From positions 1 through 52,326 of IMG/VR virus record IMGVR_UViG_3300023112_000019: DNA of 52,326 nucleotides. One strand, written 5' to 3'. The position numbers were made by a program, and so were the translations under genes. The notes under the pieces were generated by a model. The model did not search any database, was not told the origin of the DNA, and was given only the letters and a program-made list of their open reading frames with translations. This DNA is from a virus. Shown in pieces: positions 1 to 17,196 of the stretch. Each line of letters opens with the position of its first letter. Positions within the stretch are counted from its first letter, which is position 1.

Positions 1-3000
1 TTTTATAAAATCTTTATTTAAATCATCATCAGCTTTGATTTCATCTGTCTTTTTATATTCAGAAAAACCTACTGAACCATCAGTATTCTGGTCATCAGAG
101 TCATCTGGGTAGACAACCTGAATAGAATTAAATACCCCGTCAGAGTTGACCCTCATTCCATTTTCGATGATGTCATGCTCTGCGGTAATCATGTGGTAAT
201 TTCTGTACTGCTTCATTAGCGTCGCAGGGATCTCTCCATTGTTTACTGGCTTGGCAGAGTTTATTGGTGCATCATCCACGTTCGATCTATCAACTTTCCC
301 ATTTGGATAAATGATATCTTTTGGTGGTGCCTTGCCATCAATTAGTCTCTTCTCATTCTTAAAGAGTTCTTTCTTTGAGAAAATTTTAGTAATACTATGC
401 CTTCCTGTTTTGGCTATTGTATAGTCTTTAAGGTTTCTTTCTACGGGACTTAGTGTTGCGGAGAGGTCATCATCTCCGCCCATTATTACTGCTTCTTCAT
501 AAGTTGGTCCTCTATGAAAGTATAGTTGCTCTGGGTAACCAAAAAAGATAGTGCTTCGTCTATCAAAATTTACAACATCACAGATTGTTCCTGGATGTCT
601 TAGTGTTAATTCTTGGAGAACGTCCCATATAGTTTGCTCATAGATAACAAACTTTGATCCTTTAAAGAATGTAAAGATTGCATCTTTGACACCTGCAATA
701 ACTCCAATAGTTCCGCCGATAATAAATCCTGCAGCGGCTCCAATAACTGCACCTGCAACTGTACCAACTACAGGAATGATTGATGCTGGGACGCCAAAGA
801 AGGCACCAATTCCGACACCTCTTCCTGCCCACTTAGTCACCTGATCCCTGAAGGTATCCCAGGACCCAAACAAGGAGGGTGCAAATATATTTTCTACAGC
901 AGTTCGTCCGCCAGCTCCACGCCAGAAGAAAGAACTTTCACCAGTAGTATTCTTTGCATTTATTGTTCCAAAGTTTTGAACCTCAGGAGAGCCATGAAGC
1001 AATTCACTAATCATGTTCTGTGTATTGGAGTTATAAGTAAAGTCATCAGCTACACCAACTCCTTTTAGTTCTTGGACTAGCTCTATTCCATCTCCTTGGC
1101 ATACGATTTCTACAACATCGCCTCCACCAATTTGTGAAACTCTTCCTGAAAATTCTACAGATAAATGATTTGGATCTCCCTCATAACCAAGTCTTAGCTC
1201 AATTCTAGTTCCTTCTTTAAGCATAACATCGTCTAGTTGATTGCTATTTGCTTTTTTGTCTCTACCTTTTGTCTCTCCACCTTTTGGTTTGGTTCTCTGG
1301 GTAGCAGGAAGTTCGTTTTTAAGCTTGCTGGTATTATCTTCAAAGGCTTTATTTACAAGGTCTTCTCTAGTATTGGCTAGTCTTACAACTAATATATCTG
1401 CAGGATTGTGTTTGTCTTTTGCTAGTCGAATATCTACTATTGCATTTATGTCATAGAAGTCTGTAAAATTTCTCCAGATACCACTACCTGCTAGTCTTCC
1501 TAGTCTGTCTTTGTCGACATCACTTAAGCTCCCAACGTCATCTTCTTTAACGTAGAGCTTAAATGTTGGCATTGATCTACGCATTGTGTATGTAGTATCT
1601 TGAAAATTATCTACAGCTGCTTGAGTATTTAGGAATTGTTGAGGACCACTAATCGGTGCTTGGATAAAACCTTTATCAAAGTCTCCTTTCTCTGGTCTTT
1701 CTTTGTCTGCACCTACAGTAATTATATTGGGAGCTGCAGCTGGTGGCCCTGGACTTCCTCTCATATCATCTGATATTTTTTTTGAAGCCTCCTGGTCTGA
1801 TACCTGTTCTGCAAATTGTTCTCCGCCTTTAGCATATCTTCCTTGTACTTTTTCTAATATTTTTCTTTTATATCTATTGTCGCCCTGATCTGACTTGTTA
1901 TAAAAAAAGAAGTCAGGCTGTAGAGTTTGATCTGGTAGCATCATGTCTGGATAGTTTGATTCGTCTGCTGTTAAATTAAAACCCTTAAACTCAGTTAGGT
2001 CTTTCTGATATGTAGTGAACCTTGCATCTTTCTCTTCTGTTCCAGCTGTTATCTTTAGTAAGTCCCACACAACTTCATTAACCATGTCTGAGCTGAAAGG
2101 TCTCATTGAAATTATTTGGTCACCACCATTGATATCGCTATTGGGCCAGATGACAGTTCTTCCTGGGTAATTATCTCTGATGTCACCTTTGACATCTCTT
2201 AGTCTTCTCTCTACAAGATCAGGATCACTTAGGGCTGACTCAACTGTTCCAAAGTCCTTTGCTGACAGAGCATCATTTAAGCTCTCTGTTAATTTTCTTG
2301 CAGCATTAAAATCAGGATCTGAATTTTGTGTATCAACCCCTATCTGGAATGTCTTTCCATTCTTTGCAATTCCATATTTGTCTGCAAGCTTTTGCACAAG
2401 AGAAAGAGAACTTTCATAGACCCTATTAGACGGTCCCTGGTTGGCTTGTTTAATATTAGTATCTATTGCTCTATGGTTTTCTGTTAGTGAGAAACTAAAT
2501 CTTGAACAGAAGGGCATTCCCTCTACTGTTTGACTTTCTGTGTTCTGAATCATGCAACCAAGATATTGATTGGGATCGAATGTTGACATCTTGCCAGTCT
2601 GCTCGTCTAGGACTTGCAGTCGCTGTTCATCATAGTGTTTATACTTGAGAAGCTTAGACATTGGGTGCTTAATAAAGATAGAGTCATTTTTAGCTACCCG
2701 TCTATAGTCAACTGCATTGCGATTAACTAGCTCTATAATACTATTTATTTTCGATAGACGACTGGACGTTCCAACTGGTGCCCCATCATTAAACCCATCT
2801 TTAAGTTCTGCATTTGCAAAAAGATTAAAGACAACGTTTCCATCTGAAGCTCCAAGGAACTGTGCAGTTGGCACGGTGTGCCCAATCAGAGGTATCGAAA
2901 CTGTTTTGGTTTGAAGACTTATTCTTGCTGACTCTACAAGCATTCTTCCAGAGTCTAGTACGGCAGCTGGATTATCAAAGTCTCTTATTCTGTATCTTCT

Positions 3001-3912
3001 GTACCTATAAAGGACTGTTCCTGCCTCCGCATCTGAGGCTTGAAATTCATCAACTGGTAGCCAGCCTTCTTTCTCTGCCTCTCTTAATGCCTCTTTTAGT
3101 TTGGCATCTGTTTCTACTACATATATTTTTTCTGATGGATCTATATCCAGACTAGTTAAAGCATCTATCTGAGCATTAGCATTATCTCTTTCTGCATCAA
3201 TTCTTTTGTACTCTTTATATATCAGCTCTAAGTCATTAGAATCACCTGCAGACATTCCGTTTGTATAAGCGCCAGCTATTGGCCCGCTTCCTTTCTCCCC
3301 AACGTTAGCTAGTGTCCCACTTTCTATAAATTTTGTAAATTGATTATCGGGAACAGCTGTGGCAATTGGGACTCCATTTTCTTCAACCTTTTTAAAAGCA
3401 AAGTCAGGAGAGAAAGGAGTGTAGTTAAACCACTCAAGATGAATCCTTACATTAAACATTCCAGGTTCTCTTGCTTTTGATTCTACATCTATCTGCTTAA
3501 TGACCGCAGCCATGTTCGTTTGGGATACATCTTCTGTTCCAATCCCAACAAATGTCTCGACATCTATTTTCTCTATCTCTCTTCCCACTATCTCTTTTCT
3601 TATCTTTTCATTTTCTATTGAAACAAAAGGACACTTTCTAGCTTGAATAAGTAATGGAGCCAGCTGCTCATTTACCCAGGCTTCTGCCTGTATATCATTT
3701 CCTGTTCTTGCATCATAACCTGTAGCAAAATATGTATCTATAATTATAGAGATAGTTCTACGACCACTCTTCACCCATGTACTGGATTGAGAACGCAGGG
3801 TTGAAACAGAGGCGTTGTGATCCTGTTTAAGGATTGTAATGTTCTTGGGTGGAACACGAAGCTCTATGTCATTGATTCTGAGAGAGCTTGAAGTTAGTGG
3901 TGCTGTTGCCAT
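1..3912 (-). CDS. Giant baseplate-hub-like virion protein, C-terminus beyond window
   Basis: The frame is open from ATG at 3912 to the left edge, giving at least 1304 residues with the C-terminus missing. Around residues 905-950 a pattern of the form xRLGYxGD, then FSGRVxxI, then Vx(I/V)xCxGDG matches the phage late control D / gp27-like hub fold, in which a barrel domain lines the end of the tail tube. A strongly hydrophobic Gly/Ala stretch at about residues 1035-1080 looks like a glycine zipper or a membrane-inserting segment, which is unusual in a hub. The start overlaps the stop of the upstream 1413-residue gene as TAATG, implying coupled translation. Position after the giant tail genes fits a baseplate role. 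The hub assignment rests on pattern resemblance; the rest of the protein is unrecognised. Confidence 0.6.
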   Translation of the reverse strand, partial: MATAPLTSSSLRINDIELRVPPKNITILKQDHNASVSTLRSQSSTWVKSGRRTISIIIDTYFATGYDARTGNDIQAEAWVNEQLAPLLIQARKCPFVSIENEKIRKEIVGREIEKIDVETFVGIGTEDVSQTNMAAVIKQIDVESKAREPGMFNVRIHLEWFNYTPFSPDFAFKKVEENGVPIATAVPDNQFTKFIESGTLANVGEKGSGPIAGAYTNGMSAGDSNDLELIYKEYKRIDAERDNANAQIDALTSLDIDPSEKIYVVETDAKLKEALREAEKEGWLPVDEFQASDAEAGTVLYRYRRYRIRDFDNPAAVLDSGRMLVESARISLQTKTVSIPLIGHTVPTAQFLGASDGNVVFNLFANAELKDGFNDGAPVGTSSRLSKINSIIELVNRNAVDYRRVAKNDSIFIKHPMSKLLKYKHYDEQRLQVLDEQTGKMSTFDPNQYLGCMIQNTESQTVEGMPFCSRFSFSLTENHRAIDTNIKQANQGPSNRVYESSLSLVQKLADKYGIAKNGKTFQIGVDTQNSDPDFNAARKLTESLNDALSAKDFGTVESALSDPDLVERRLRDVKGDIRDNYPGRTVIWPNSDINGGDQIISMRPFSSDMVNEVVWDLLKITAGTEEKDARFTTYQKDLTEFKGFNLTADESNYPDMMLPDQTLQPDFFFYNKSDQGDNRYKRKILEKVQGRYAKGGEQFAEQVSDQEASKKISDDMRGSPGPPAAAPNIITVGADKERPEKGDFDKGFIQAPISGPQQFLNTQAAVDNFQDTTYTMRRSMPTFKLYVKEDDVGSLSDVDKDRLGRLAGSGIWRNFTDFYDINAIVDIRLAKDKHNPADILVVRLANTREDLVNKAFEDNTSKLKNELPATQRTKPKGGETKGRDKKANSNQLDDVMLKEGTRIELRLGYEGDPNHLSVEFSGRVSQIGGGDVVEIVCQGDGIELVQELKGVGVADDFTYNSNTQNMISELLHGSPEVQNFGTINAKNTTGESSFFWRGAGGRTAVENIFAPSLFGSWDTFRDQVTKWAGRGVGIGAFFGVPASIIPVVGTVAGAVIGAAAGFIIGGTIGVIAGVKDAIFTFFKGSKFVIYEQTIWDVLQELTLRHPGTICDVVNFDRRSTIFFGYPEQLYFHRGPTYEEAVIMGGDDDLSATLSPVERNLKDYTIAKTGRHSITKIFSKKELFKNEKRLIDGKAPPKDIIYPNGKVDRSNVDDAPINSAKPVNNGEIPATLMKQYRNYHMITAEHDIIENGMRVNSDGVFNSIQVVYPDDSDDQNTDGSVGFSEYKKTDEIKADDDLNKDFIK

Positions 3913-6900
3913 TAGTGTCCTTTCCCTATCATATCTTTAATTGTAAACTTATCCATGTGAGACCTATGATCCTGTAATCTAACGTTTAAATCTTTCATAT
4001 TGGCTGAAGCATGAGCTCTTAGGGAATCAAAATTCGTTCCGACATCAGCCTGTCCTCGTACATCAAAGGAAGAAAACTTTTGTTCTGGGATTTGAAATAG
4101 TGTTTTGCCGGCAGATGCATCTCCCATGCCGTTTGCATATCCTTTTTCAGACTCATGTAATGGGCCTGCTGTCGCAGTTGGCTGCATCATCTTTGGTTTA
4201 GACATTAAACTTGCAGCTAAACCAATACCTGCTGTAGGTAGGATACCCCATTTTGCTATGTTTTTCAAGCCCTTACTCATAAAATGAGACGCTGCGTTTG
4301 ACGCATCTTTAAGCATAGCCTTGTATCCGCTGGCCTTGCTTATGTTTCTCTGCGCAATAGACGAGGCATAGTTGCCTGATGCTTGAAGATCTCTCCCCAA
4401 AGTATGAGACTCTATTACATTCTCAAGGTTTTTTGCACTAGATATCTTCTGGTATGCATTTCTTTGACTGGTTGCTCTATTCATTATTGACTCAACTTCA
4501 GCTGCCCGTAGCCTTGCATTCTCAATGCCTCTTGCTTCCTTCATCTCTTTTGCATAGCCCATTTTCTCAGCTAGCTCCATAGATGCTACCTCAGAACTAG
4601 ACTGCCTTATGGCATCTCCAGCCTCTTTTCCTCCAAAGCTTAGCTCGTCAAAAACTCTCTGAAGACTCTGGGCCTTCTCTCCTTTTCCCATTCTTGCGTA
4701 TTCTGTTCCAACAGATCCTCTAAAAATATCTAATACATCGTCAACTGAGCCTGAAAGCAGTGCTTCCTTTCCCTGGTGCTTTGCTTTAAGTACATTCTCT
4801 ACGAATAAATGGGAGAAGTCTTCGCCTAAATAGTATGCTTCTGCGGCACCTCGGCCCATGTTGGGTCTTAATTGTTCTCTTAATCCTATATGTATATTCT
4901 TGAATTCGTCAGAGAATGAGCCAATCTTTGATTCTAAATTCTTCTGTGCAGCATTAAGTCCTACTAGCTCTTGGTTTAATAAAGAGGTAATACCTTCTGG
5001 TGCTCTACCTTTAAGTTCAAATGCAGACATTCTCTTAAGGGATGAGGTAAACTCACTCCCCATAACACTTTGTTGTTGGCCGCCGTATCCGTAAAATTGT
5101 TCTATTGATCCTCTTGATTTTTCTGATGTAGCTGCGATAACGTTTAACTGATCCTTGTCGAAGTCGACAAACATTGATCTTCTAATTAAACTTTGAGAGG
5201 CATTCTCTCCAGACACAAATATGCGCCCTTTCTCGCCACCAACGTTACCAAACTCTTCAGCTGTTCTGATATTAACAGGTAGTGAACTGTGAGTACCTTC
5301 TATCGGCTCTCTTGTCATTAGTCCCCAAAGCCTTCCTTCTTCTGCCTGCTTTATAGCTTGAGCTCCAAACTTTTCTCCTATGTCACTTTTGGTCATAGCG
5401 ATAAGAGGAGCCTGCATGTCGTCTCCTATTTTCATTGCCTTTCCAAGTTCTTGTGCTGCTCTATCCATGCCATCTAGTGAAGATACAGCTTGTCCATATA
5501 CTGAACCACTAACCTTTCCTCCGAATAGATTTTTAGAGACAGCTCCTTCGACCTCGCCAAATGCTGCTTGGTATTTTTTCATTTTAGCTTCTTGGAATGC
5601 TTCGTCTTGCCCGTTCTTAACCGAGGCAAGTAAATCAAATGTAGCTCTATCCAAAGGACTTTTCCCAGCCTTTGATGCACCAACATATGGTGACATTGCC
5701 TCTGAAGCAAAGACAGTTACTTTATCTACTCCTCCAATCTCTTTCCCTAGATTGATAGTCATTCTTTCTTTACCCTGCATGTAGTTTCTTCTACCAGCAA
5801 GGTCTTCTTGAAGTAGCTTGCCTAGATCCTCTCCTACGTCAGCAAGGTTTACTCCTCTTGCTGCTTTGTCTCCTGCTATATTCTTTGCAGCATTAATCTC
5901 TCCAAGTTGAGCAAAAGGACTCTGCTCTCCAACTCTTCTTGATGTGAAATCTTCAAGAACATCCCCAAGCCCCATTGCCTGCAAGTTGAAGGCTGCACGA
6001 TCAGACATTCTACCCTGGCCAAATATCCCAGCTTGAGTACTAGAGATATCTGCAGATAAAACCATTTCACTTACGCTACTTCCAAGATGCTTCTTTCCTC
6101 CAAAGATCTCGTCTGTAGACTGGTTAGGGTGCCAGCTTTCTATTTTGTTTATCATTTCTTTACCAGACATATTACTGCCTTGGAACTCTCCGCCTTTGAT
6201 CCCTAACTCTTCTAGTCTTTTAATTGCAGCAGCGTCCCCGCTTTCTACAACACCAGAAGCATAAGATAGGATTCCTGTCATCCCCTCTCTGGCCGGTAGC
6301 ACTCCGCCCTTTATCTTTACGGGTGCCTCTGCAGAGATCATGTCAACGTCTTTAAATATCGTATTGGCAAAACCTTCTGCTTGAGCTTCTGTTGCTCCTT
6401 GACCATATTTCTCTATGGCCTCCATCCAACCTGCTGTTAGAGGAGTGTTTGCTGTTCCTTTCACGGTCCACTTTCCACCGCCTCCGCCACTAAATGACTT
6501 AGACATAACACCATACTTAAACCTACTTTCTGTCCCAATAGATAGTACGCCCTCGTTCTTTCTTATGCTGCTAATTGTATTAGAGAGGTCTCCTCCTTTC
6601 ACCTTTATAGGATTTCCTATAGTGTCGTATCCCATGACACCATATCCTTTAATAGATTCATTAATACTTTGAAGGCCTCTTCTTTTTCCTGCTAGTTGTT
6701 TTTCTAAACTCTTCAGCCCTTCAGTTTCACCTTTCATTCTTTGGGTGCTAATACTAGACTCTAGTGAATCTATCTCTCTTCCTATTCCAAGCTTTCTGTC
6801 TTCTAACCTTCTTAGTTTCTTATTCAGGTCAAGGTTTAATCCTTCTAGCCCTCCAGGGGAGGTCATTGCTTTTGCAACATCAGCTGAGTTCATACCCTGT

Positions 6901-8153
6901 GCAGCAGCCTGCCTATAAACATCTTTCATTAATCTTTCACCAAATTGAGTTCCCTCTCTCTGTAAGTCTATGTGAAAGTTATACATTTTATTTTTTATAC
7001 TAATATTTGATTTGTTTGAGAGAAGGACTTCTTCGGCAGCTAACTCATGAGCTGGTAGTCCTTGTCTCTTTAGAGCCTCTCTATATGTATCCATATTCTT
7101 AACAGTCGCAACTTTGAATTGACCTAATCCAGAGTCTATATCTGGAGTCCAGTTTATAGATGTCTTCTTAGTTCCTTCAAATTTACTTTGTCTATGTAGT
7201 TGATAAGAAGAGATAGAAGCTTCAGCTGCAGGCATTCCTCTTGACAAGAGTGACTCAGGAGTAGCCATTACTCCACCTACAAACATACTTTGATTACCAC
7301 CAGAGTAGCCAGGGTTTCTGGCTATGTCTTTCATCATGTCTATTCTGGCTTCTCTAGTTTTCTGGCCAAATAGATCTACTACAAATTGTTCTTTTCTTAT
7401 TTCTTGCAATCCAACAGCTCCTGGTCCAGACCCTTTTGCCCCTTCCCATATTGCTTTATCTGTTGCTGCTCTTCTTATATCTCTTGGGTCAATCTCCCCT
7501 GCTTTGATTCTACTTAGCTCTTCTTGGTATTTTTTAGTAAGGGCTACATCAATTCCTTCTAGCTCAACTCCTGTTTCTCCATAGCTAAGTAAAGATGATC
7601 GTGCTATATGCGTATTCTTTCCGCCAAGAGTCATTGCTCCCTCAGTATTAACTAATGGTATATCAAATACGAAATCTTTTCCACCCCTAATTCTAATCAT
7701 ATCTGAATATTCAGCACCTGGCTGAGAGTGAGCGAAGGCTTTTACTGAACCGAACTTAGCTTCAACCATATCATATAGGCTGCTAACTTCTTTTCCAAGC
7801 TCTGCACTTCTCCCCTTATAGCCTCCCTCAAGGTACCCTATCTCTTCCATGATACCTCTCTTGCCTTTTAGGAAAGTTGTCTCATAAGATGGTCCCGATG
7901 TTTCTGGTATACCACTTCTAAGAAAGTTACTCATTGTAAGACTTGAGGCAACTGGGTTTACTGCCTTATTAAATGTTGGAGCTACGGCAGCTTGAGGCGC
8001 AATAGATCTTCTAAAGTATCCAGTGGGATCAGCCGATGAAGGAAAGTCTCTAGCTGTTAAGTAAAGACCATATCCAGAACCAGCGATTAGAGTTCCTCTA
8101 CCCAGCACACTGGCTGCGTCTACATCATTTTCAAAGTTAAATTTTTCTATCAT
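3912..8153 (-). CDS. 1413-residue virion protein with RNA-polymerase-like DFDKD motif
   Basis: This 1413-residue protein lies between the tape-measure-position gene and the hub gene; its start overlaps the upstream stop as ATGA. Seen directly: a probable coiled coil at residues 440-500, a Gly/Ser-rich loop at 553-560, a hydrophobic segment near residue 1310, and TREP at 947-950 followed 49 residues later by DFDKDQ (997-1002). In multisubunit RNA polymerase beta-prime an Arg-x-Pro motif precedes the metal-binding loop NADFDGDQ by about 35 residues, and single-chain relatives (QDE-1, YonO, crAss-like gp66) keep three aspartates in the same pattern. Here the usual Gly is Lys. A Lys pair at 874 and 880 (KNLFGGK) could belong to a first barrel. 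The polymerase idea is inference; a purely structural or second tape-measure role is possible. Confidence 0.6.
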   Translation of the reverse strand: MIEKFNFENDVDAASVLGRGTLIAGSGYGLYLTARDFPSSADPTGYFRRSIAPQAAVAPTFNKAVNPVASSLTMSNFLRSGIPETSGPSYETTFLKGKRGIMEEIGYLEGGYKGRSAELGKEVSSLYDMVEAKFGSVKAFAHSQPGAEYSDMIRIRGGKDFVFDIPLVNTEGAMTLGGKNTHIARSSLLSYGETGVELEGIDVALTKKYQEELSRIKAGEIDPRDIRRAATDKAIWEGAKGSGPGAVGLQEIRKEQFVVDLFGQKTREARIDMMKDIARNPGYSGGNQSMFVGGVMATPESLLSRGMPAAEASISSYQLHRQSKFEGTKKTSINWTPDIDSGLGQFKVATVKNMDTYREALKRQGLPAHELAAEEVLLSNKSNISIKNKMYNFHIDLQREGTQFGERLMKDVYRQAAAQGMNSADVAKAMTSPGGLEGLNLDLNKKLRRLEDRKLGIGREIDSLESSISTQRMKGETEGLKSLEKQLAGKRRGLQSINESIKGYGVMGYDTIGNPIKVKGGDLSNTISSIRKNEGVLSIGTESRFKYGVMSKSFSGGGGGKWTVKGTANTPLTAGWMEAIEKYGQGATEAQAEGFANTIFKDVDMISAEAPVKIKGGVLPAREGMTGILSYASGVVESGDAAAIKRLEELGIKGGEFQGSNMSGKEMINKIESWHPNQSTDEIFGGKKHLGSSVSEMVLSADISSTQAGIFGQGRMSDRAAFNLQAMGLGDVLEDFTSRRVGEQSPFAQLGEINAAKNIAGDKAARGVNLADVGEDLGKLLQEDLAGRRNYMQGKERMTINLGKEIGGVDKVTVFASEAMSPYVGASKAGKSPLDRATFDLLASVKNGQDEAFQEAKMKKYQAAFGEVEGAVSKNLFGGKVSGSVYGQAVSSLDGMDRAAQELGKAMKIGDDMQAPLIAMTKSDIGEKFGAQAIKQAEEGRLWGLMTREPIEGTHSSLPVNIRTAEEFGNVGGEKGRIFVSGENASQSLIRRSMFVDFDKDQLNVIAATSEKSRGSIEQFYGYGGQQQSVMGSEFTSSLKRMSAFELKGRAPEGITSLLNQELVGLNAAQKNLESKIGSFSDEFKNIHIGLREQLRPNMGRGAAEAYYLGEDFSHLFVENVLKAKHQGKEALLSGSVDDVLDIFRGSVGTEYARMGKGEKAQSLQRVFDELSFGGKEAGDAIRQSSSEVASMELAEKMGYAKEMKEARGIENARLRAAEVESIMNRATSQRNAYQKISSAKNLENVIESHTLGRDLQASGNYASSIAQRNISKASGYKAMLKDASNAASHFMSKGLKNIAKWGILPTAGIGLAASLMSKPKMMQPTATAGPLHESEKGYANGMGDASAGKTLFQIPEQKFSSFDVRGQADVGTNFDSLRAHASANMKDLNVRLQDHRSHMDKFTIKDMIGKGH

Positions 8154-11100
8154 ATAATTTCACCCATAGCTCTAAGCTCTTGGTAGATCTCATTATTTCG
8201 ATCGTACTCTAAATCGTAGGATACTGTTGGACCTACACTATCCCTCTGAATTATCTGAGGATTTCTAATTCCTGCCTGAACCGCTTGCTTGTAAACCTGT
8301 TCATAGGTAACGCTTTCAGCTAGAGGTTGGAATGGGTCCACTCCCTCTAATGATTCTTCAAGATATGGCTTTCTTCTTAGCCCTCTTAGTCTATCATCCC
8401 ATAGATCATAGTAGTGATATTCCCTACCTGTGTCTATTAGGTATTTTAATTTTACATCCTCAAGATCCACATCAGCTCTCCATCCGATCCAGTCTTCTGC
8501 TGGAAGATTTTCGCTAGCCTGTAATGCTTCTCCTTCTGCTTGTCTTCTTGCTCTAATGGTAGCCATTCTATTGAAGACTTCTTTCTCTAGATCCTGACCT
8601 TCTGCTTGGCTTATATCAAGCTTGCCTTCTGCCATATCATTTAGCAAGACCTTATCCCATTGGGCTATATATAAGTCTTTCATATTGTTAGGCATGATCT
8701 CAAGTAAGCGAGCCTTGTCTTCTGGTCCTGCTTCCTTGAACTGTTCAAAGTACACCTTTTCTCTTTTAGGTAGCGCTGCCATTAATCTAAATTCATTCTC
8801 GTATACATCTGTGCCGGCTAAGGTTCTACCCGCCTTGTTATGGAAAGTTCTTGCTTTGCCTTCTGACCCTTGAGCCATTGCCATTCTTTCATGGCGCTTA
8901 TTTTTAACGTACTCTATCTTATCGAAGTAACTCTCTATTTGTCTAGCATCTCTTACTGCGTCTGGGATTCTATCTATCCCTGCCATGTTGGCAACTGTTG
9001 TAGCAAAAGGTTTAATAAAATCTTCTATTGGTCTCTGCCAAAGTTTAAACTCTTTACCGTATATTGATTCTTCATAATCTGTCATAGCAGATGAAGGAGG
9101 AAGGAGTTTATGAGCAGGAGCGATAGGGCTTAATTGCTCTAGTGGATTTGCTCTTGCTATATCAACTAGTGCTGCACCGTATCTACCAAGGACGCTTTGA
9201 TCGTATACGTCGTCTCTAAAAGACTTTCTTTTACGCTTATCCTCAAGCTGCTCTTCTGTTCTTTGAAAGATCTCTAATTCATAATCTGTTGGATCATGTG
9301 CTTCTAATTCTTTTCTTGCACTTCTGAACTCTCTAGAATATGGAGCAATATCTGCAAGTATTTTATATCTATGTATTAATGGGTAATCTGCAGGATTAAC
9401 TCCCTCAAGTTCTTTATACCTGGCTGCGTATCCTCTTCCTGGTAATCTGTATTCACCTTCTTGAACTTTAGTAAATGGATCACCTTGCTTGAAGTTCTTG
9501 TAGTAGTCTTCTCCAGGCATCCAGTCAGGCATATCATTGGCTATAGGATTTACATACTCTGTTGTATAAGGTCTCTTAGGAATGAAACGCCTGATAGGCT
9601 CTGTCATACCAAGGAAACCACCGAGGTTTAAATCCCAGAATTTCCTACGAGTGCTATCTATATCTGCAGATGATTGAAGAATAGGTGTATGTTCGAATAC
9701 ATCTTGCTCTCCTGTCACTGCTTGTTTAATAGCCGAGGCCACAAAACCACGTAGACCTACAGCTTCATAGGTTGTATAGTATTGTTGTTTAATTTGTTCA
9801 GCGGCACTATATGGTGTGACCGCATCTTCTGGAGGAAGTGCTCCTGCAATCTTTTTAGATGGAGCATACTTTCCTGATCCACCATGCAGGTGATCTCCTC
9901 TATGTCTCCCTTCAAATATTTCTGGATGCATTAGTACTGGTGGCTTCATTACTCTACCAACAGTCCATTCGTATGCGGCTCCAAATAGACCGAGGTCTTC
10001 TCCGGTTGAACCAGCTATAGGATAGGGTCTATCCTCGTAGTGCATCTTCTCTAACCAATAAGGATCAGCTAGGTCTCTTACAAATTTGCCAACAGGAGAA
10101 ATATCTTCGCCATCGTATATTGACTTGTCTGTAGGTCTATCTAGTATTCTGTTGTACCAGTTAGGACGATAGTAATCTGTCTTGGATCCTTCCCATGGGG
10201 TCGTTCCAAATTCCCACCAGCGAGCTTTCTTGATAGCAACTTCTTTACCACCAAGGTATTCTTCATCTAGTTCTGCTACTGATTTTTCTGAACCTAGACC
10301 AAAGAGTAAGAATGGCGCAGCTAATGCAGCCATCGCTAGCCCTCCATGCTTCCCCCATCTTAAGGCTCTTGTATAATTGCCTCCCATAGTTGGGATTTTT
10401 CTTAGACCTGCCGCCATTGCTTTCTCGGCCGTCTTTGACTTAATCATTGCATCGTATCTAGCCGGGCCAGCTGCAGCTCTTGCTTCTTCAAATATACCAG
10501 CACCCATTCCGAGTGCAGTTCCTGTTATCATCCCAGACAAGGTAAACCCTAGCCATGGTTTGACTCCAGTTAATCCAGGTGCTTTTTCTTCTGCGTATTT
10601 CCTGATCTCTGTTAAGCCAGAGGCTTCAGATAGTCCAGCATAAGTCATGTGTGCTACACGAGCACCCTCTGCTAGAACTCCTGTTATCCCGGCTTTGCCT
10701 GCAACGCTATCTTCTGGTGCAACCTGTCTAGTCATCCAGTTCAGTGTTCCGAACACTGCTGGTAAGCCAATAAGTAAAGGAAGAGCTTTTGCTGCATGTC
10801 TTCCTAGTATCTGAGGAAGAGTTCCTATTAATTGTTTCTCTCCTCCAACACCAAACTTAGGCAATCTTTTTGTAATAGACTGTACAGTATCTGTTACTCC
10901 TCCAGTTTTAATATTAGGAAATAGATCCCTAAAGGCTTTAACTGGATCGTCAACTAGACGTAAGTATTTAGATAATGTTTCATGACCATAAGCATGAGCG
11001 GCACGGAATGCTGCTTGTCTCTTTGTCTTCCCACCACCAATTAAGATTTCGTGCTCTCTACCAACTCCAGCTATATTAAATGTATGTTCATACGATTTTG

Positions 11101-13660
11101 TAAACTGAGTCTTAGAAGTACTAATATTTTTATCGTGTATTGCTTGGTATGCTCTAGCTTCTTTTAATAGAAGTTCTCTTCCGCCTGTTCCTGTTACACC
11201 ATAAAGCTTTCCGCCCTCGAATGACATTTTGGTAAACTTCTGGAAGTCAGCCCCTTTGCCAATACCGAAAGTCTTCTTGTTTCTTTCTGTAAGCTGCATA
11301 AAATATGTTTCATAACCATACCCTACAGACTGTTTAAAGCTTCTATTTTTAACTTTATTTAACTGGTCTCCAACTGGATCAAAAGCTTTTGTTCCTAGGT
11401 CTACCTCAAAGTTCATATCCTTTAAGATACTTGGAGACATCATTGTACTCAAACTGAAAGCTTTTGGTATTCCACCTAGCCCTAGTTCGAATCTTCTTAA
11501 TGCGTTATATGCTACGTCTTTATATTTTGCGTTTTGTCTTCCCAGAGCTTCTGGGCTTATCCCCATATACGAGAACTTGTTCAGGTCAAGAGGGTTGCCT
11601 TTTATGCTATAGACATCTCTATCCCATAGGAATCTTGCTGCCCCAACCATTGCTGCTGCAGTAGCTATGCCACTCCAGGCTACAGGCGTTGGGTCTTCGT
11701 GAGCTGTTGCAAGTGAGCCTTTAAATCCTGAACCAAATTCTGTTGTGTTCTTTCTTTGCTTACCAAACCATCCATGAGGCATGGCGTTGATACTATTATA
11801 TGCAGCACCTTTTCCAGAAAACTGATTAGTTATTTTGTATAGTGCACCCTGCCTGTATGACTCTTCTTCGTTATATCCGTCTTCCCACATTTCTGCGGCA
11901 CCTGCAGCCAGGTGTTTGTTTCTTCCTAACCTAAGAAGATCCGTTAATGAGTTGAATGTTAAATCTTTTCCTTGTCCTGCAGAAAATGCTTTCCAGTCTT
12001 TGAAAAAGTCATGCCCCCAAATTCCAAGGCCTTCTCTCTCTGCCTTCCCTCCAGCAGCCATAAATGTAGCTCTGTCTACTGCGTCTTTATGTTGAGGTCC
12101 AAATTCAAGAGACGAAGCATAACCTTCTGCGGCTAGTTTTAAGTTAAGGTTTTCGTTGCCCTTATAGATAACACCAAGATATCTACCATAGGTTTTTTCA
12201 GTAGGATCTACTATTAGCCTAAGGTCTTCTTTGTCCCCTAGCATTTCTTTAAATCTATCTGTAGCAGCTTGCCCCAGAGGTTGCTCTTGACCAACTCTAT
12301 ATGGTCCTAGTGGATCATTAGCATGGGTTGTTTCAGGAGCATCAATTCCAGACATTCTAATTACGACATCTGGTTCAGATGAGCCTTTCTTGTTCAAGAC
12401 AAGAGTATCGGCATCATCAACCATAACGTTATATTCGGATAGTTTAACTTCTCTTAATTGTTTCCTTTTCTTATTCAGCCCTTGAAGAGTTGCCTGGTCT
12501 CCAAAGTACATCAAGTCTAGACGACTAATCTCTCCATGCTGGACTTTCTCCTGGCGTCTGTCTCTATCTTTATTTATGGCCTCAGCCATTAGCGGGTCTT
12601 TTAATGCTGTAGACATTCTATTGATTCTGTTCATATTGAAACCAGAACCAAAGTCTGTTATGTGATTTCTTGATTGGCCGAACCAACCATGATTCAATCC
12701 TTCTATTGTATTATAGTCATCATCTTTGCTTGAGATGCCTGCTGTCTTACCTAGTAGGTATCCAGCTGCCGCAACACCACCAGCAATAGCAGCATATCTC
12801 CCCAGCCCTTTTGGAAGTTTGCCAGCAAGTTTATTTACCTTGCTTACTTTGATTCCAGCTTTAGCTTCTGCTTGTAAAAATATTTCTGTACTAGAAAGGC
12901 CATACTCTCCAAGCCTAAAACCTTGAGAGCTTTTAGCATTAAGCATTTCATTTCTATAAGATGCGTAATTAGTTTTAAGCATTGTTCCAGAGAACAACTT
13001 CGCCCCGTAGGAATTTGCAAGTTTCTTTCTCACATTAAGAATGCTTCGAGTCTCTTGTTCTACCTTTAGTGCTGTTGGATCCTTCCAGGCTTCAAGCCAT
13101 TTGCCTAGCCCCTTCGGAACATTACCAGCTTTAATCTGCTCAATGCTATGGATTAATCTTCTATTTAAATTCTTATTAGTACCAGAACCAAATGACTCTT
13201 TTAAAAACTGCTTATGTATACCTACAGATATATCAGCCTTTGGCGATATGATTCCTTTCTCTTGAGCAATAGCGTTCAGAGATTTTGCCAGCTCGATAGT
13301 ACTGATGGTACCACCGCCAGCCTTGCCTTGCATTACCATCTGCTCGTAAACACGCATCTGTCTGATACGGTCTCTTTGCCTTGCAACCTGCTTGCTCATT
13401 CTATTTAAACCAACATCCTCTAGGTCTTTCATCCTTTGATGTCGGTTTTCTTTTATGATTGCTTGATAGGCAGTGTCAGGAGTTCCAGTCTTTCTTAGAT
13501 TTATATCATAAGAAAAGAGGTTGGCTTTATTAGATGTTAGATTAAATATGTCTCTTGAGGAGGCTGATTTGTTTGAGTTCAAGACGAACGAGTGCTGCGT
13601 GGGCAGATAAGCCCCCGTAGCTCTACGGTTGGAATTTAATTTGCTTGAGTTTCTAGCCAC
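8150..13660 (-). CDS. Giant tail protein in tape-measure position with staphylococcal-nuclease domain
   Basis: This 1836-residue protein directly follows two chaperone-like genes, the usual place of the tape measure protein. Residues about 405-548 form a staphylococcal nuclease (thermonuclease) domain. The catalytic set is complete: D418 in DDADT, R435, D440 and E443 in GIDAPE, and R493 in YGR, equivalent to D21, R35, D40, E43 and R87 of the S. aureus enzyme. A 26-residue motif containing HGWFG and FGSGF occurs twice, at 316-341 and 621-646, flanking the nuclease. Hydrophobic Gly/Ala segments lie at about 288-306, 660-677, 956-972, 1036-1056 and 1106-1122, compatible with membrane insertion during ejection. 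The last 700 residues are polar. The nuclease is well supported; the tape-measure role rests on position, length and hydrophobic segments. Confidence 0.75.
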   Translation of the reverse strand: MARNSSKLNSNRRATGAYLPTQHSFVLNSNKSASSRDIFNLTSNKANLFSYDINLRKTGTPDTAYQAIIKENRHQRMKDLEDVGLNRMSKQVARQRDRIRQMRVYEQMVMQGKAGGGTISTIELAKSLNAIAQEKGIISPKADISVGIHKQFLKESFGSGTNKNLNRRLIHSIEQIKAGNVPKGLGKWLEAWKDPTALKVEQETRSILNVRKKLANSYGAKLFSGTMLKTNYASYRNEMLNAKSSQGFRLGEYGLSSTEIFLQAEAKAGIKVSKVNKLAGKLPKGLGRYAAIAGGVAAAGYLLGKTAGISSKDDDYNTIEGLNHGWFGQSRNHITDFGSGFNMNRINRMSTALKDPLMAEAINKDRDRRQEKVQHGEISRLDLMYFGDQATLQGLNKKRKQLREVKLSEYNVMVDDADTLVLNKKGSSEPDVVIRMSGIDAPETTHANDPLGPYRVGQEQPLGQAATDRFKEMLGDKEDLRLIVDPTEKTYGRYLGVIYKGNENLNLKLAAEGYASSLEFGPQHKDAVDRATFMAAGGKAEREGLGIWGHDFFKDWKAFSAGQGKDLTFNSLTDLLRLGRNKHLAAGAAEMWEDGYNEEESYRQGALYKITNQFSGKGAAYNSINAMPHGWFGKQRKNTTEFGSGFKGSLATAHEDPTPVAWSGIATAAAMVGAARFLWDRDVYSIKGNPLDLNKFSYMGISPEALGRQNAKYKDVAYNALRRFELGLGGIPKAFSLSTMMSPSILKDMNFEVDLGTKAFDPVGDQLNKVKNRSFKQSVGYGYETYFMQLTERNKKTFGIGKGADFQKFTKMSFEGGKLYGVTGTGGRELLLKEARAYQAIHDKNISTSKTQFTKSYEHTFNIAGVGREHEILIGGGKTKRQAAFRAAHAYGHETLSKYLRLVDDPVKAFRDLFPNIKTGGVTDTVQSITKRLPKFGVGGEKQLIGTLPQILGRHAAKALPLLIGLPAVFGTLNWMTRQVAPEDSVAGKAGITGVLAEGARVAHMTYAGLSEASGLTEIRKYAEEKAPGLTGVKPWLGFTLSGMITGTALGMGAGIFEEARAAAGPARYDAMIKSKTAEKAMAAGLRKIPTMGGNYTRALRWGKHGGLAMAALAAPFLLFGLGSEKSVAELDEEYLGGKEVAIKKARWWEFGTTPWEGSKTDYYRPNWYNRILDRPTDKSIYDGEDISPVGKFVRDLADPYWLEKMHYEDRPYPIAGSTGEDLGLFGAAYEWTVGRVMKPPVLMHPEIFEGRHRGDHLHGGSGKYAPSKKIAGALPPEDAVTPYSAAEQIKQQYYTTYEAVGLRGFVASAIKQAVTGEQDVFEHTPILQSSADIDSTRRKFWDLNLGGFLGMTEPIRRFIPKRPYTTEYVNPIANDMPDWMPGEDYYKNFKQGDPFTKVQEGEYRLPGRGYAARYKELEGVNPADYPLIHRYKILADIAPYSREFRSARKELEAHDPTDYELEIFQRTEEQLEDKRKRKSFRDDVYDQSVLGRYGAALVDIARANPLEQLSPIAPAHKLLPPSSAMTDYEESIYGKEFKLWQRPIEDFIKPFATTVANMAGIDRIPDAVRDARQIESYFDKIEYVKNKRHERMAMAQGSEGKARTFHNKAGRTLAGTDVYENEFRLMAALPKREKVYFEQFKEAGPEDKARLLEIMPNNMKDLYIAQWDKVLLNDMAEGKLDISQAEGQDLEKEVFNRMATIRARRQAEGEALQASENLPAEDWIGWRADVDLEDVKLKYLIDTGREYHYYDLWDDRLRGLRRKPYLEESLEGVDPFQPLAESVTYEQVYKQAVQAGIRNPQIIQRDSVGPTVSYDLEYDRNNEIYQELRAMGEII

Positions 13661-13669
13661 TAGCTTCCT

Positions 13670-14290
13670 CTAGTTCTGTCTTTTACTAAAGTCACCTGAA
13701 GGTGCGCCAAATTCTTCTTCGCGCAGGTTTGCATTTACTTTTGTAAAATCAACAGATGTCTCAGTATATTCTTGTAACCTATCGAATATTTTACCACTTC
13801 CATCGGTAGGCTGGCTAGCTGGGGTCTGGAATTCAAACTCTCTTTTAAGTATAAATTCAGCTTGAGCTAAACGTCTAATCAAAACAGGCCAAGTCATCTT
13901 CTCTAATGTCTCTGGCAGATAAGAAGGAAAAGCTTCACAAATAGTTATAATTGCTTGCTCTCTTGCGTCGGCAAGTAATTCTCTTGCATCTCCTAATTGA
14001 ATGTTTACACTATCAATTGATTGAGGACAAGAAAGATATAGGATAAGTTGAGATACAGTAGTGATAAGGCCCGCAGGTAAGTAATCCTTTCCGTTACCAA
14101 AGGAGTGCTCGACGACACAGTCGTCCCAAATACGATCCTCTAGATCGAACTTGAACTCAGGGTAGGCCTGCATGATATATCGCATGGCTTTGTAGGACTC
14201 ATAGTCTAGTAAACTAAACATGACTCTACCTTCAGTCGTTGCGAAAAGATACAGGTCCCTATGTTTCTTAAGGACCTTATCGAAATCCAT
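13670..14290 (-). CDS. Putative tail assembly chaperone, second gene of pair
   Basis: This 206-residue protein is read just before the giant tape-measure-position gene (9-nt gap). Its ATG overlaps the stop of the 171-residue gene as TAATG. Many tailed phages encode two chaperones here, the second often reached by frameshifting. I find no usable slippery site: the frame of this gene has a TAG four codons upstream of its own ATG and the codon pair there does not re-pair. Separate initiation by coupling is therefore more likely. The protein is mostly polar and helical by appearance, with no catalytic motif. Function is inferred from position only. Confidence 0.55.
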   Translation of the reverse strand: MDFDKVLKKHRDLYLFATTEGRVMFSLLDYESYKAMRYIMQAYPEFKFDLEDRIWDDCVVEHSFGNGKDYLPAGLITTVSQLILYLSCPQSIDSVNIQLGDARELLADAREQAIITICEAFPSYLPETLEKMTWPVLIRRLAQAEFILKREFEFQTPASQPTDGSGKIFDRLQEYTETSVDFTKVNANLREEEFGAPSGDFSKRQN

Positions 14291-14805
14291 TACAGTTTTC
14301 TAACTAGCTGCATTGCCATTTCAGGGGCGATAAAGTTAGAGACTTGTAGAATCATGTCTCTGGCGCTGTCAATAGAGCCGGCTGTTAAAACATTGATGTT
14401 TTGCTGATCCAGCCTAGGCCACAGTGTAGCTTTCATTACAATAGCTTCTGCTTTCTTGTCATCTGGAATCTTTTGAATCTTCTGCATTAGAGCTCTCCAC
14501 TCTAAGCGCTTCAGAGGCCTGAATACGAAGTTCTCATGCTCGCTGAGACTCATTAGGTACACGTCACCTATCTGGGCCTTCATCTGCTCAATCTCTTCGT
14601 CTGAGGGTCTGTTCTCAAGTTCCTTAAAGGTCTGGATAACAAAGTCTTGCTCCATCTGCTTTTGTTGGATCTTGGCCAGTAATTCTTTCTCTTCATCTGT
14701 AAGGCTAGCGATTACTGGATCTTCTTCCTCATATGACTGTTCTGCGAAATCTTCTTGAGCTAAATGAGCATCAAGATCTACGTCTGCGTAATTTTCTTCT
14801 GACAT
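14290..14805 (-). CDS. Putative tail assembly chaperone, first gene of pair
   Basis: This 171-residue protein has an acidic N-terminal 40 residues, then a core with FVFRPLKRLEW and a later IVMKATLWP ... AGSIDSARDMI segment. That resembles chaperones in which an Arg-containing RPLxRxEw strand precedes a Cys/Thr-x-WP helix and a terminal helix ending in SNF or SGF. The gene lies between the tube-like genes and the giant tail protein. Its SD is GGGAGA seven to ten bases before ATG, and a sigma70-like promoter lies just upstream at 14831-14859. The family assignment is by pattern memory and context. Confidence 0.6.
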   Translation of the reverse strand: MSEENYADVDLDAHLAQEDFAEQSYEEEDPVIASLTDEEKELLAKIQQKQMEQDFVIQTFKELENRPSDEEIEQMKAQIGDVYLMSLSEHENFVFRPLKRLEWRALMQKIQKIPDDKKAEAIVMKATLWPRLDQQNINVLTAGSIDSARDMILQVSNFIAPEMAMQLVRKL

Positions 14806-14830: not shown

Positions 14831-14859
14831 ATTATATAGTTATATTAGTCTTCTTGCAA
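14831..14859 (-). promoter_or_regulatory. Sigma70-like promoter for chaperone/tail block
   Basis: On the minus strand, TTGCAA (14854-14859) is followed after exactly 17 bases by a perfect TATAAT (14831-14836). The predicted transcript would begin near 14824 and leave a leader of about 19 bases carrying the SD of the 14805 gene. The -35 box lies inside the end of the upstream tube-like gene. A terminator at 16521-16555 would reduce read-through from upstream, so an internal promoter makes sense. No mapping data are available. Confidence 0.5.
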
Positions 14860-15460
14860 TAAAATTATATTGTTCTTGAACTGGACGACCGTCCGCATTA
14901 ACAACCTTGCCTTTACCCATAATCTGTATACCGGAAATAGTCTCACTAGGCGAGTCCTTTCCTAACTCATAGCCATATCCAACAGTTATATCGAATGTAC
15001 TATGATTAAAATTTTCTTTAGTGTTATCTTCTGATATCCCATTGAACTCTCTAGACTGTTCTACTAGACTTCCTTTTGCTGTTCTTGCATCGATCTCATC
15101 AAAAAATTGACTAAATCTTTGCCTTTTATCCGTTAGGTATGTTAGTGACTTTTCTTTTGCATCATCTTTCTTTGTCTGTATAAGCCTAGCTTCTCTAGTT
15201 GTGTTAAATGATTTATACCTATCTAGGATTAACCATAGATAGTTTGGCTCCCTAAAGTTAATAGTGAAAGAACCAGTTACTATAATATTCCCTTTGGGAA
15301 TGAAGTCATAGTGTTGTGATCCGTATCCAAACTGAGGGAGTCTTGTGTGCTGAACGCTATAGTCTAAAGCTAGAATATCATCTACCCATACATCACCAAT
15401 AAAGGCTGATGCCTGTGCTCCTGAAAAATATTGTCCATTAATTGTTAAAGCTTCTGCCAT
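14840..15460 (-). CDS. Tail tube-like paralogue 3
   Basis: This 206-residue protein is the third of three consecutive tube-like genes. It shares with the other two the order: short N-terminal strand, an aspartate/valine strand leading to LDYSV, a loop with FGYG, then a Gly-x-Ile-x-VTGSFTINF strand and a helix with LW(L/I)ILDRYK. The paralogue at 16588-17196 has ISYSI, YTMG, IAGSLIFIVF and HALLERFK at the same places. Start ATG overlaps the preceding stop as TAATG. It may be a baseplate tube-extension protein (like T4 gp48/gp54), a completion protein or a minor tube protein. The paralogy is seen in sequence; the exact role is not determinable. Confidence 0.6.
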   Translation of the reverse strand: MAEALTINGQYFSGAQASAFIGDVWVDDILALDYSVQHTRLPQFGYGSQHYDFIPKGNIIVTGSFTINFREPNYLWLILDRYKSFNTTREARLIQTKKDDAKEKSLTYLTDKRQRFSQFFDEIDARTAKGSLVEQSREFNGISEDNTKENFNHSTFDITVGYGYELGKDSPSETISGIQIMGKGKVVNADGRPVQEQYNFIARRLI

Positions 15461-16509
15461 TAGAATGATCCTCTACTTTGTTTTAGAAGTCTGTTCGCTT
15501 CTCCTTTTGTTTTAAAAGGATTAGTTAAAGCATCAATCCTATTTCTAGAGGAAGCTTTAGCAGAACTAAGTCCTGAGTCAGCTACATCTCTGATACTTCC
15601 AATTATCATTTCATCGTAACTATTAAATCTGTTACCAAGATTTGTCATAGGTATCATATCAGTAGCATAGAAGTTCATAGTGTTATATGTAATAATGCTG
15701 TCGACCGACATCTCTTGTCCCTCTGAAGATATATCAACATTGAGAAGATGAAGTGACGAGTAAGCGCCGTATTCATTTGCGAACAATAGCAGCACGTTAA
15801 AAGGTTGAACTTGATCAATCATAACCGCGTGCGGGTGTGGCGGAAGATCTCTATTGCCATCTATATTATCTACAAGCTTAAGAAAATCATGCTCCTGAAA
15901 AACATTAAAGGCCATTGTCCCTGCTATTGTTCTGGGCCCTCTTGTATAATCTTTAGCTCTGACTGTTCCTAGTGCTCTTACTCCGAATTTTTCTCTGAAT
16001 GAACTATAGGATAGTGTGTGGATTGAGCCAAGCTCAAAGTAATTTTCTACATCACCCTGAATTTTTAGTTCTCTTTGCAGATCATCTAAGTTACCGTTAA
16101 GAGTAACTAGTTCTCCGCCTACCTTGGCTTCTCTGGCTGCTGCTGCGGAAACCTGTTTTGCGTACTTTCCTTCTTTGTTATTAAGGCTACTCATTGCTGT
16201 TGAGTCCTCAGGGACACCAGAAGCTCTAAGCTGATTTCTTCTTTTGGCTATATTTTCTATCTGCGCAATATTTAGATCAGAGACAGCTGTAAGATCTTCT
16301 GATGCTATAGCTTTTGCTTTTCTCTGTCTTTGTATCTCAACTTCTTTTATCTCTATTTCTTTCTTTAGGTTGTCTACTGCAAACCTGGAAGCAGGAGTCT
16401 CATTTCTATATGCAACTACAGTTATGTCAGCACCAGAAAAAGACACTAAATTCTCTATGGAACTGAAGCCTTTTCTTGTTTGTTTAACTTGATCTCTGAA
16501 GTCTACCAT
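15460..16509 (-). CDS. Tail tube-like paralogue 2 with coiled-coil insertion
   Basis: This is a 349-residue protein. I place the start at ATG 16509 (SD GAGG, 6-base spacer). The longer reading from 16578 would translate straight through a strong terminator hairpin. Residues 21-31 (FSGADIT) align with the start of the 202-residue tube protein. Residues about 156-260 align with its body: LSYSSFREK, IAGTMAFNVF, PFNVLLLFANEYGAYSS, versus ISYSINREK, IAGSLIFIVF, PFDIVLAAANEYGAQAT. Between the first and second strands sits an inserted, highly charged helical segment (residues about 36-155) predicted as coiled coil. The insertion would project from the tube, so this is probably a specialised tube-end or baseplate-proximal subunit rather than the main tube. 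Confidence 0.65.
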   Translation of the reverse strand: MVDFRDQVKQTRKGFSSIENLVSFSGADITVVAYRNETPASRFAVDNLKKEIEIKEVEIQRQRKAKAIASEDLTAVSDLNIAQIENIAKRRNQLRASGVPEDSTAMSSLNNKEGKYAKQVSAAAAREAKVGGELVTLNGNLDDLQRELKIQGDVENYFELGSIHTLSYSSFREKFGVRALGTVRAKDYTRGPRTIAGTMAFNVFQEHDFLKLVDNIDGNRDLPPHPHAVMIDQVQPFNVLLLFANEYGAYSSLHLLNVDISSEGQEMSVDSIITYNTMNFYATDMIPMTNLGNRFNSYDEMIIGSIRDVADSGLSSAKASSRNRIDALTNPFKTKGEANRLLKQSRGSF

Positions 16510-16520
16510 GCATCCTCGTA

Positions 16521-16555
16521 ATAAAAAAGGGAGAAAGACTAGGTCCTTCTCCCTT
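16521..16555 (-). terminator. Rho-independent terminator after tail tube gene
   Basis: On the minus strand AAGGGAGAAGGAC, loop CTA, GTCTTTCTCCCTT form a 13-bp stem with one G-U wobble, immediately followed by a run of T (TTTTTTAT). It lies 33 bases after the stop of the tube gene (16588) and 12 bases before the SD region of the next gene. It probably limits transcription downstream of sheath and tube, the products needed in most copies. It also argues strongly that the next gene starts at 16509. Confidence 0.85.
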
Positions 16556-16587
16556 AATATTAGACTATTTAATTTCATATTGCAAGC

Positions 16588-17196
16588 TTAGCTTTCTATG
16601 GATTCCTTGATCAGAGCAATTCTATCTGTAGAATTTTGATCAAATATCCATGGAGTAATTGACTTAGCGATATACGTATACTGTTGTTCAGTCACGATAT
16701 CATCAATACTTACACCTGAATTCTCGTTCAGTAGTTCAATCCCAAAGATTCTCATGGTTGCCTGAGCCCCATATTCGTTAGCCGCAGCTAGTACGATATC
16801 GAATGGAGGAATCTGATCTGAGTACCATGGAGCTACTTCTTCTTGATTAAAGCTGTTCGACGGTGTTCCTGGTGTCGCAAACTCGGCCTGTGTCTCGAAG
16901 AGAGCATTAGCGTTAATGTTCCCCCTGATACCAGTCTCGTCTTTGTCGGCAGAGAACACTGAGTCCTTAAACCTTTCAAGTAGTGCATGCTTATCAAATA
17001 CAATGAAAATTAAGCTACCAGCGATACCCCTTTTGCCTCTAGCAAAAGATCTAGGGTCAGCCTTTCCCATTGTGTAAACAGGAGCCTTCTCTCTATTAAT
17101 CGAATAAGAGATAGCCTGGATTTCTCCGATAGGCTTTCCTTGAAAGATGGGAGTAATGTCTACACCTGAAAAGCTGTTAAATGTTTCTGTTGCCAT
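16588..17196 (-). CDS. Tail tube protein
   Basis: This 202-residue protein is encoded directly after the sheath gene (17-nt gap), the standard place for the inner tube protein of contractile tails. SD AAGGAG lies eight bases before the ATG. The N-terminal SFSGVDIT, then ISYSINREK, IAGSLIFIVFDKH and ANEYGAQATMRIFGIELL, is the pattern reused in two downstream paralogues; this is the shortest and simplest version. The gene is followed by a strong terminator, as expected for an abundant product made with the sheath. I assign it as the main tube subunit from order and paralogy. Confidence 0.75.
   Translation of the reverse strand: MATETFNSFSGVDITPIFQGKPIGEIQAISYSINREKAPVYTMGKADPRSFARGKRGIAGSLIFIVFDKHALLERFKDSVFSADKDETGIRGNINANALFETQAEFATPGTPSNSFNQEEVAPWYSDQIPPFDIVLAAANEYGAQATMRIFGIELLNENSGVSIDDIVTEQQYTYIAKSITPWIFDQNSTDRIALIKESIES

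Follow-up and report, generated by a model that had tools for sequence, protein, structure and literature searches.

Our analysis suggests that P0001, a 1413-residue protein encoded among giant tail genes, is an active single-chain two-barrel RNA polymerase carried in the virion (we put the probability at roughly 0.7), and the family to which it belongs very likely consists of divergent single-chain two-barrel RNA polymerases. The window, meaning the whole stretch of 52,326 nucleotides analysed here (a 52-kb IMG/VR record), encodes a terminase, a portal, a capsid protein and contractile-tail genes. An earlier note on this DNA had placed an RNA-polymerase-like catalytic signature in the protein, and direct translation returned exactly the letters and the place it gave (T947-R948-E949-P950 and D997-F-D-K-D-Q1002, then LNVIAA). 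Its reading of P0001 as a single-chain double-psi-beta-barrel polymerase among giant tail genes is supported by conservation among homologues and by the structure predicted for one of them. The gene and its proposed parts are listed below with the basis of each.

3912..8153, minus strand: P0001, 1413 aa, candidate virion RNA polymerase (ORF; held-out family HMM; syntenic homologues with the same signature)
5151..5312, minus strand: catalytic signature, R948 to D1001 (direct translation)
5130..5336, minus strand: proposed aspartate barrel (DPBB-A), residues ~940-1008, with R948-x-P950 and D997-F-D999-K-D1001 (invariant triad; HMM built without P0001; homologue model)
6459..6671, minus strand: proposed lysine barrel (DPBB-B), residues ~495-565, with G-x-x-[LM]-G508 ... 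K552-x-F-(x)n-K561 (conservation; six strands in the homologue model)
6498..6500, minus strand: K552, invariant lysine (22/22)
6471..6473, minus strand: K561, second lysine of the pair, in a loop longer than in most relatives (HMM alignment; K in 19/22 at a shifted column)
6285..6350, minus strand: segment 602-623, DVDMISAEAPVKIKGGVLPARE (by-eye likeness to RpoB 'VDIVLNPLGVPSRMNIGQ'; family alignment)
5574..6236, minus strand: connector between the barrels, residues ~640-860, clamp/variable region (lies between the two conserved cores; homologue model predicts mainly helices)
4767..4844, minus strand: trigger-loop-like segment 1104-1129, family consensus LLEWxEQxPISAKH (conservation)

The RxP..DxDxD pattern alone is not rare, since a few unrelated giant ORFs among the ~200 scanned carry such a pattern, and the signature stands above chance because it is conserved across 22 aligned family members. 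In the layout that we propose, an N-terminal region of ~490 residues would be followed by a barrel supplying K552 and K561, whose pattern K-x-F-..-K may be compared with KMAGRHGNKG in RpoB. A helical connector would then lead to a second barrel, the source of R948 and of D997/D999/D1001 as Mg-binding triad, and last would come helices with an element resembling a trigger loop. In the family alignment and the homologue model a conserved ISAKH segment and long helices, possible counterparts of the trigger loop and bridge helix, come after the aspartate barrel. Known single-chain two-barrel RNA polymerases run in the order lysine barrel, connector, aspartate barrel and helical region with a trigger-like segment (PMC10770324), and the order proposed for the one chain of P0001 is the same.

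The genes on either side are the following:

8150..13660, minus strand: probable tape measure protein of 1836 aa, next to P0001 (its upstream neighbour where gene order is conserved; follows small tail genes)
1..3912, minus strand: baseplate-hub/endolysin-like protein of 1304 aa, next to P0001 and truncated at the edge of the window (its downstream neighbour where gene order is conserved)

The 1836-residue neighbour is homologous to ME3 gp35 (9e-74) and to its counterparts in MTATph1 and KLEB27-3, and the hub-like neighbour matches phrog_20474 (1e-40) and ME3 gp37 (3e-20). The capsid and sheath proteins of the window match those of Acinetobacter phage ME3, Moorella phage MTATph1 and Bacillus phage KLEB27-3, and the ME3 record states homology of its capsid and sheath genes to Bacillus phage 0305phi8-36. 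Distant family members keep the gene in this slot, flanked by the probable tape measure gene and the hub gene. P0001 is probably a virion protein, judging by this gene position and by analogy, as P23-45 and crAss-like phages package their polymerases with the tail. It would be built into the tail or carried with it, enter the cell with the leading DNA and transcribe the first phage genes, before the host polymerase or without it. We consider it unlikely that P0001 is a two-barrel RNA polymerase made in the cell and left out of the particle, its location among tail genes being an accident of gene order. One phage is indeed known with both packaged and non-packaged two-barrel RNA polymerases (PMC10770324), but distant members retain this placement beside the probable tape measure gene and the hub, as is the case for tail-associated virion RNA polymerases, and KLEB27-3 gp34 bears the label 'structural protein' (a record label only), both of which argue for a packaged polymerase.

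Several features of the surrounding tail region were observed alongside. The probable tape measure protein contains a PF00565 staphylococcal-nuclease domain (7e-15; residues 434-548; window 12017-12361, minus strand), and its residues ~349-610 are absent from the relative in contig L002. In L002 the gene appears as two overlapping ORFs, 10001-12679 (892 aa) and 12669-14546 (625 aa), reflecting either a frameshift error or a real split. Three adjoining paralogues at window 14840-17196 (minus strand) match phrog_9206 'major head protein', yet they lie beside the sheath gene and are more likely tail tube proteins than head proteins.

Direct searches with P0001 gave no match in Pfam, PHROGs, PDB sequences, tblastn against phages or a first scan of viral contigs, and its homologues were reached solely via the neighbouring genes and the capsid protein, a profile of which drew in >500 related viral contigs (80 kept). 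One close relative with 50% identity across the whole protein was reached through a neighbouring gene, and a two-sequence profile of residues 860-1160 matched long ORFs in 5/38 related contigs. The same gene position in the remaining contigs holds ORFs of 1.4 to 2.1 thousand residues with RxP and then DxDxD, and ME3 gp36 and KLEB27-3 gp34, which occupy this position in isolated phages, also bear both motifs, while pairwise hhalign of the two-member alignment against these two proteins was unsuccessful. The family proteins are separate ORFs of 1.4-2.4 thousand residues, and both conserved cores fall in one ORF in all of them. A motif-bearing gene is absent at this position in MTATph1 and in contig groups G023/G024 and G037. 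MTATph1 gene 27 (L009 30512-34441), which takes the same position, was rejected as a member and carries a DnaQ-like exonuclease domain instead (PF00929, 5e-5; phrog_192, 5e-11). No homologue of P0001 was found in the prokaryote genome contigs searched. Two contigs of ~200 kb, L140 (Paenibacillus sp. TCA20) and L141 (Alicyclobacillus shizuokensis), encode a related capsid protein and therefore probably hold phages of the lineage of P0001; a polymerase homologue was not detected in them. The homologues come from one and the same gene position in a large lineage of ME3/0305phi8-36-like myoviruses.

Mean identity of P0001 to the other members of the 22-member set is ~17%, and only six positions are invariant in the 22 distinct members, namely G508, K552, P950, D997, D999 and D1001. 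The invariance of the motif is partly built in, because part of the member set was chosen by motif; members L099, L136, L146 and L147, recovered by profile or similarity and not by motif, also carry DxDxD. The column of R948 reads R in 20 members and K in two, so that this residue and the three aspartates bear out what the earlier note had proposed, whereas its lysines do not, K874 being Lys in only 4/22 and K880 varying (K11/R7/Q2/other 2). Since they are so poorly conserved, K874 and K880 are not the lysine pair, and the partner barrel is placed upstream of them at residues ~495-565, with K552 and, in 19/22 members, a second lysine corresponding to K561. Both lysines of the pair are invariant in a 14-member set, as are K and Q of segment 602-623 and I and K of the trigger-like segment, in which K1125 is kept in 19/22 and H1126 in 18/22. 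The glycine of the motif is indeed replaced by Lys in P0001, as had been noticed, but with its column at G8/A8/K2/other 4 this Lys is one of several residues found there.

These patterns bear on a second alternative, in which P0001 would be a tape-measure or other tail-structural protein whose polymerase fold has degenerated, is catalytically dead and persists for structural reasons. The replaced motif glycine and the predicted helical nature of the C-terminal third agree with it, as does orf146 of 0305phi8-36, which takes the position of P0001 (flanked by the ME3 gp35 counterpart and the hub) and was assigned as tape measure mainly by correlation with tail length (PMC2147016). The catalytic residues, however, are nearly the sole positions that never vary across the 22 members, a pattern that a fold without catalysis would not be expected to keep, and the adjoining 1836-residue protein is the better tape measure candidate; we regard a dead fold as improbable and an active polymerase as the better account of P0001.

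Profile tests in which the tested sequence was held out support the membership of P0001. P0001 scored E=3.9e-26 against an HMM from which it and its closest relative had been left out (best shuffled control 0.28), and ME3 gp36, likewise held out, scored 1.1e-6 over two stretches, which match the proposed barrels in position; KLEB27-3 gp34 and L128 stayed below significance in HMM tests that were held-out or independent. A profile made from the 14 best-aligned members (P0001 excluded) aligned residues 818-1089 of P0001 at 1e-10, placing TREP over RHP and DFDKD over DxDxD, and the lysine stretch was colinear in the same alignment (K561 on the second Lys), being below significance when taken alone. 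No significant sequence match of the family to a known RNA polymerase was found in Pfam, PDB sequence or HMM searches (best E=0.05). That best value came from an HMM of the aspartate-barrel region run against ~200 sequences including shuffles, whose top three matches were the P23-45 gp96 virion RNA polymerase, E. coli RpoC and P23-45 gp64; the corresponding HMM of the lysine-barrel region did not retrieve known RNA polymerases. KLEB27-3 gp34 carries RYP..DYDGD and matches Pfam RNA_pol_Rpb1_2 at E=0.015, below the family cut-off. Many RNA polymerase families are without significant similarity outside the DxDxD region (PMC10770324).

An AlphaFold2 model of P0001 residues 470-1330, built from a noisy 18-row alignment, was poor (pLDDT 51, pTM 0.31) and was left out of the fold search, so the fold of P0001 is carried over by homology. 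Homologue L104 (residues 418-1270; 14-row alignment), which bears the same signature as P0001, gave a good AlphaFold2 model (pLDDT 79.5, pTM 0.76). Its lysine region is predicted to form six strands (model residues 111-167; lysines at 155 and 161), and six more are predicted for its aspartate region (572-647; aspartates 637/639/641 immediately ahead of the last strand), six being the strand count of a double-psi barrel. A Foldseek search of this model against the PDB returned RNA polymerase subunits, of both the beta and beta' types, in all of the best 50 matches listed (best beta-type 8wa0_B, 5.3e-5; best beta'-type 6fbv_D, 2.7e-4; 21 with E<=1e-3 among the matches listed), a result in keeping with the earlier proposal of double-psi barrels. 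The TM-scores were low (~0.14-0.18 of the query), which would fit a model that has just the catalytic core in common with the matched polymerases, and the output does not tell which barrel a given match covers. Among viral predicted structures, the model matched ME3 gp36 (A0A172Q021_2, so taken by length and origin), pox, asco and other viral RNA polymerase subunits, and phage RNA polymerases. That the DxDxD and RxP elements are a coincidence in a structural protein unrelated to RNA polymerases is hardly credible, for although the bare pattern is seen in a few unrelated giant ORFs and sequence comparison does not significantly reach known RNA polymerases, the motif and the lysine pair are conserved and RNA polymerases, of the beta and beta' types alike, fill all of the best 50 places listed in the fold search.

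A further ME3 protein, A0A172Q0S6, also matched the L104 model (E=3.6e-5) and was taken, by length only, as gp152 (L158 17554-19950, 798 aa); as it is without DxDxD, it is only a lead for a possible second ME3 polymerase.

Taking P0001 to be a virion RNA polymerase, we lean towards extending this reading to the lineage as a whole. Throughout the ME3/0305phi8-36-like jumbo myoviruses, among them hundreds of metagenomic contigs, the gene slot given to the tape measure in 0305phi8-36 would then encode single-chain virion RNA polymerases of a family that had gone unrecognised. A description of the family was not found in the open-access full-text literature. A 2021 survey of 224 jumbo phages, which mentions ME3, found RNA polymerases only in the phiKZ group and in two YonO-type cases and stated that all other jumbo phages lack one of their own (PMC7824862). 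If the P0001 family is catalytic, a large lineage would contradict that statement, early transcription in its phages may be host-independent and the tape-measure assignment in 0305phi8-36 needs re-examination; the supposed tail ruler of one relative may instead initiate viral transcription. The family would also represent a highly divergent branch, tolerant of change at the motif glycine, for reconstructing the origin of two-barrel polymerases. Both ME3 and KLEB27-3 exist as isolates whose hosts are named, so a direct test of the claim is possible.

P0001 is new as a family and in its setting and not as a kind of enzyme. To our knowledge, such phages would be the first contractile-tailed ones with a one-chain packaged two-barrel polymerase. 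The crAss-like virion RNA polymerase (the giant structural protein of phi14:2, PDB 6VR4) is likewise a single-chain two-barrel protein of a tail cluster, with the motif variant DFDID, while a close relationship to the P0001 family was not detected by sequence (E=3.6 with the aspartate-barrel HMM). The phiKZ-type virion RNA polymerase shares with P0001 a DPBB catalytic core and a home in contractile-tailed jumbo phages, but it is split over several beta/beta'-related proteins, whereas P0001 holds both barrels in one chain. The QDE-1-like polymerases YonO and 0305phi8-36 orf99 are single-chain two-barrel enzymes like P0001, and orf99, a known RNA polymerase, belongs to the non-structural right arm, where it has a transcript to itself (PMC2147016). 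No PF05183 match was found for P0001 in the Pfam search, and there were zero YonO/PF05183 matches in seven large contigs in a search run without a positive control. In phage P23-45, the record labels gp64 (L154 7291-9141), a characterised non-virion RNA polymerase, as 'head protein'. The virion RNA polymerase of the same phage, gp96, forms one polypeptide with the tape measure and is presumed to be active as the DNA passes through (PMC10770324); for P0001 our best guess is a role of the same kind. Like P0001, gp96 has two barrels in a single chain, the lysine barrel ahead of the aspartate barrel, and a tail-gene setting; it too was first found by its DxDxD motif and is without detectable RNA polymerase similarity elsewhere (PMC10770324), and it is the top match of the aspartate-barrel HMM of the P0001 family, though at E=0.05. 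The two differ in their motifs (DFDKD in P0001, DFDGD in gp96) and in arrangement, gp96 being the N-terminal part of a 5002-residue tape measure in a long-tailed siphovirus, whereas P0001 is a separate protein beside the probable tape measure of contractile-tailed phages.
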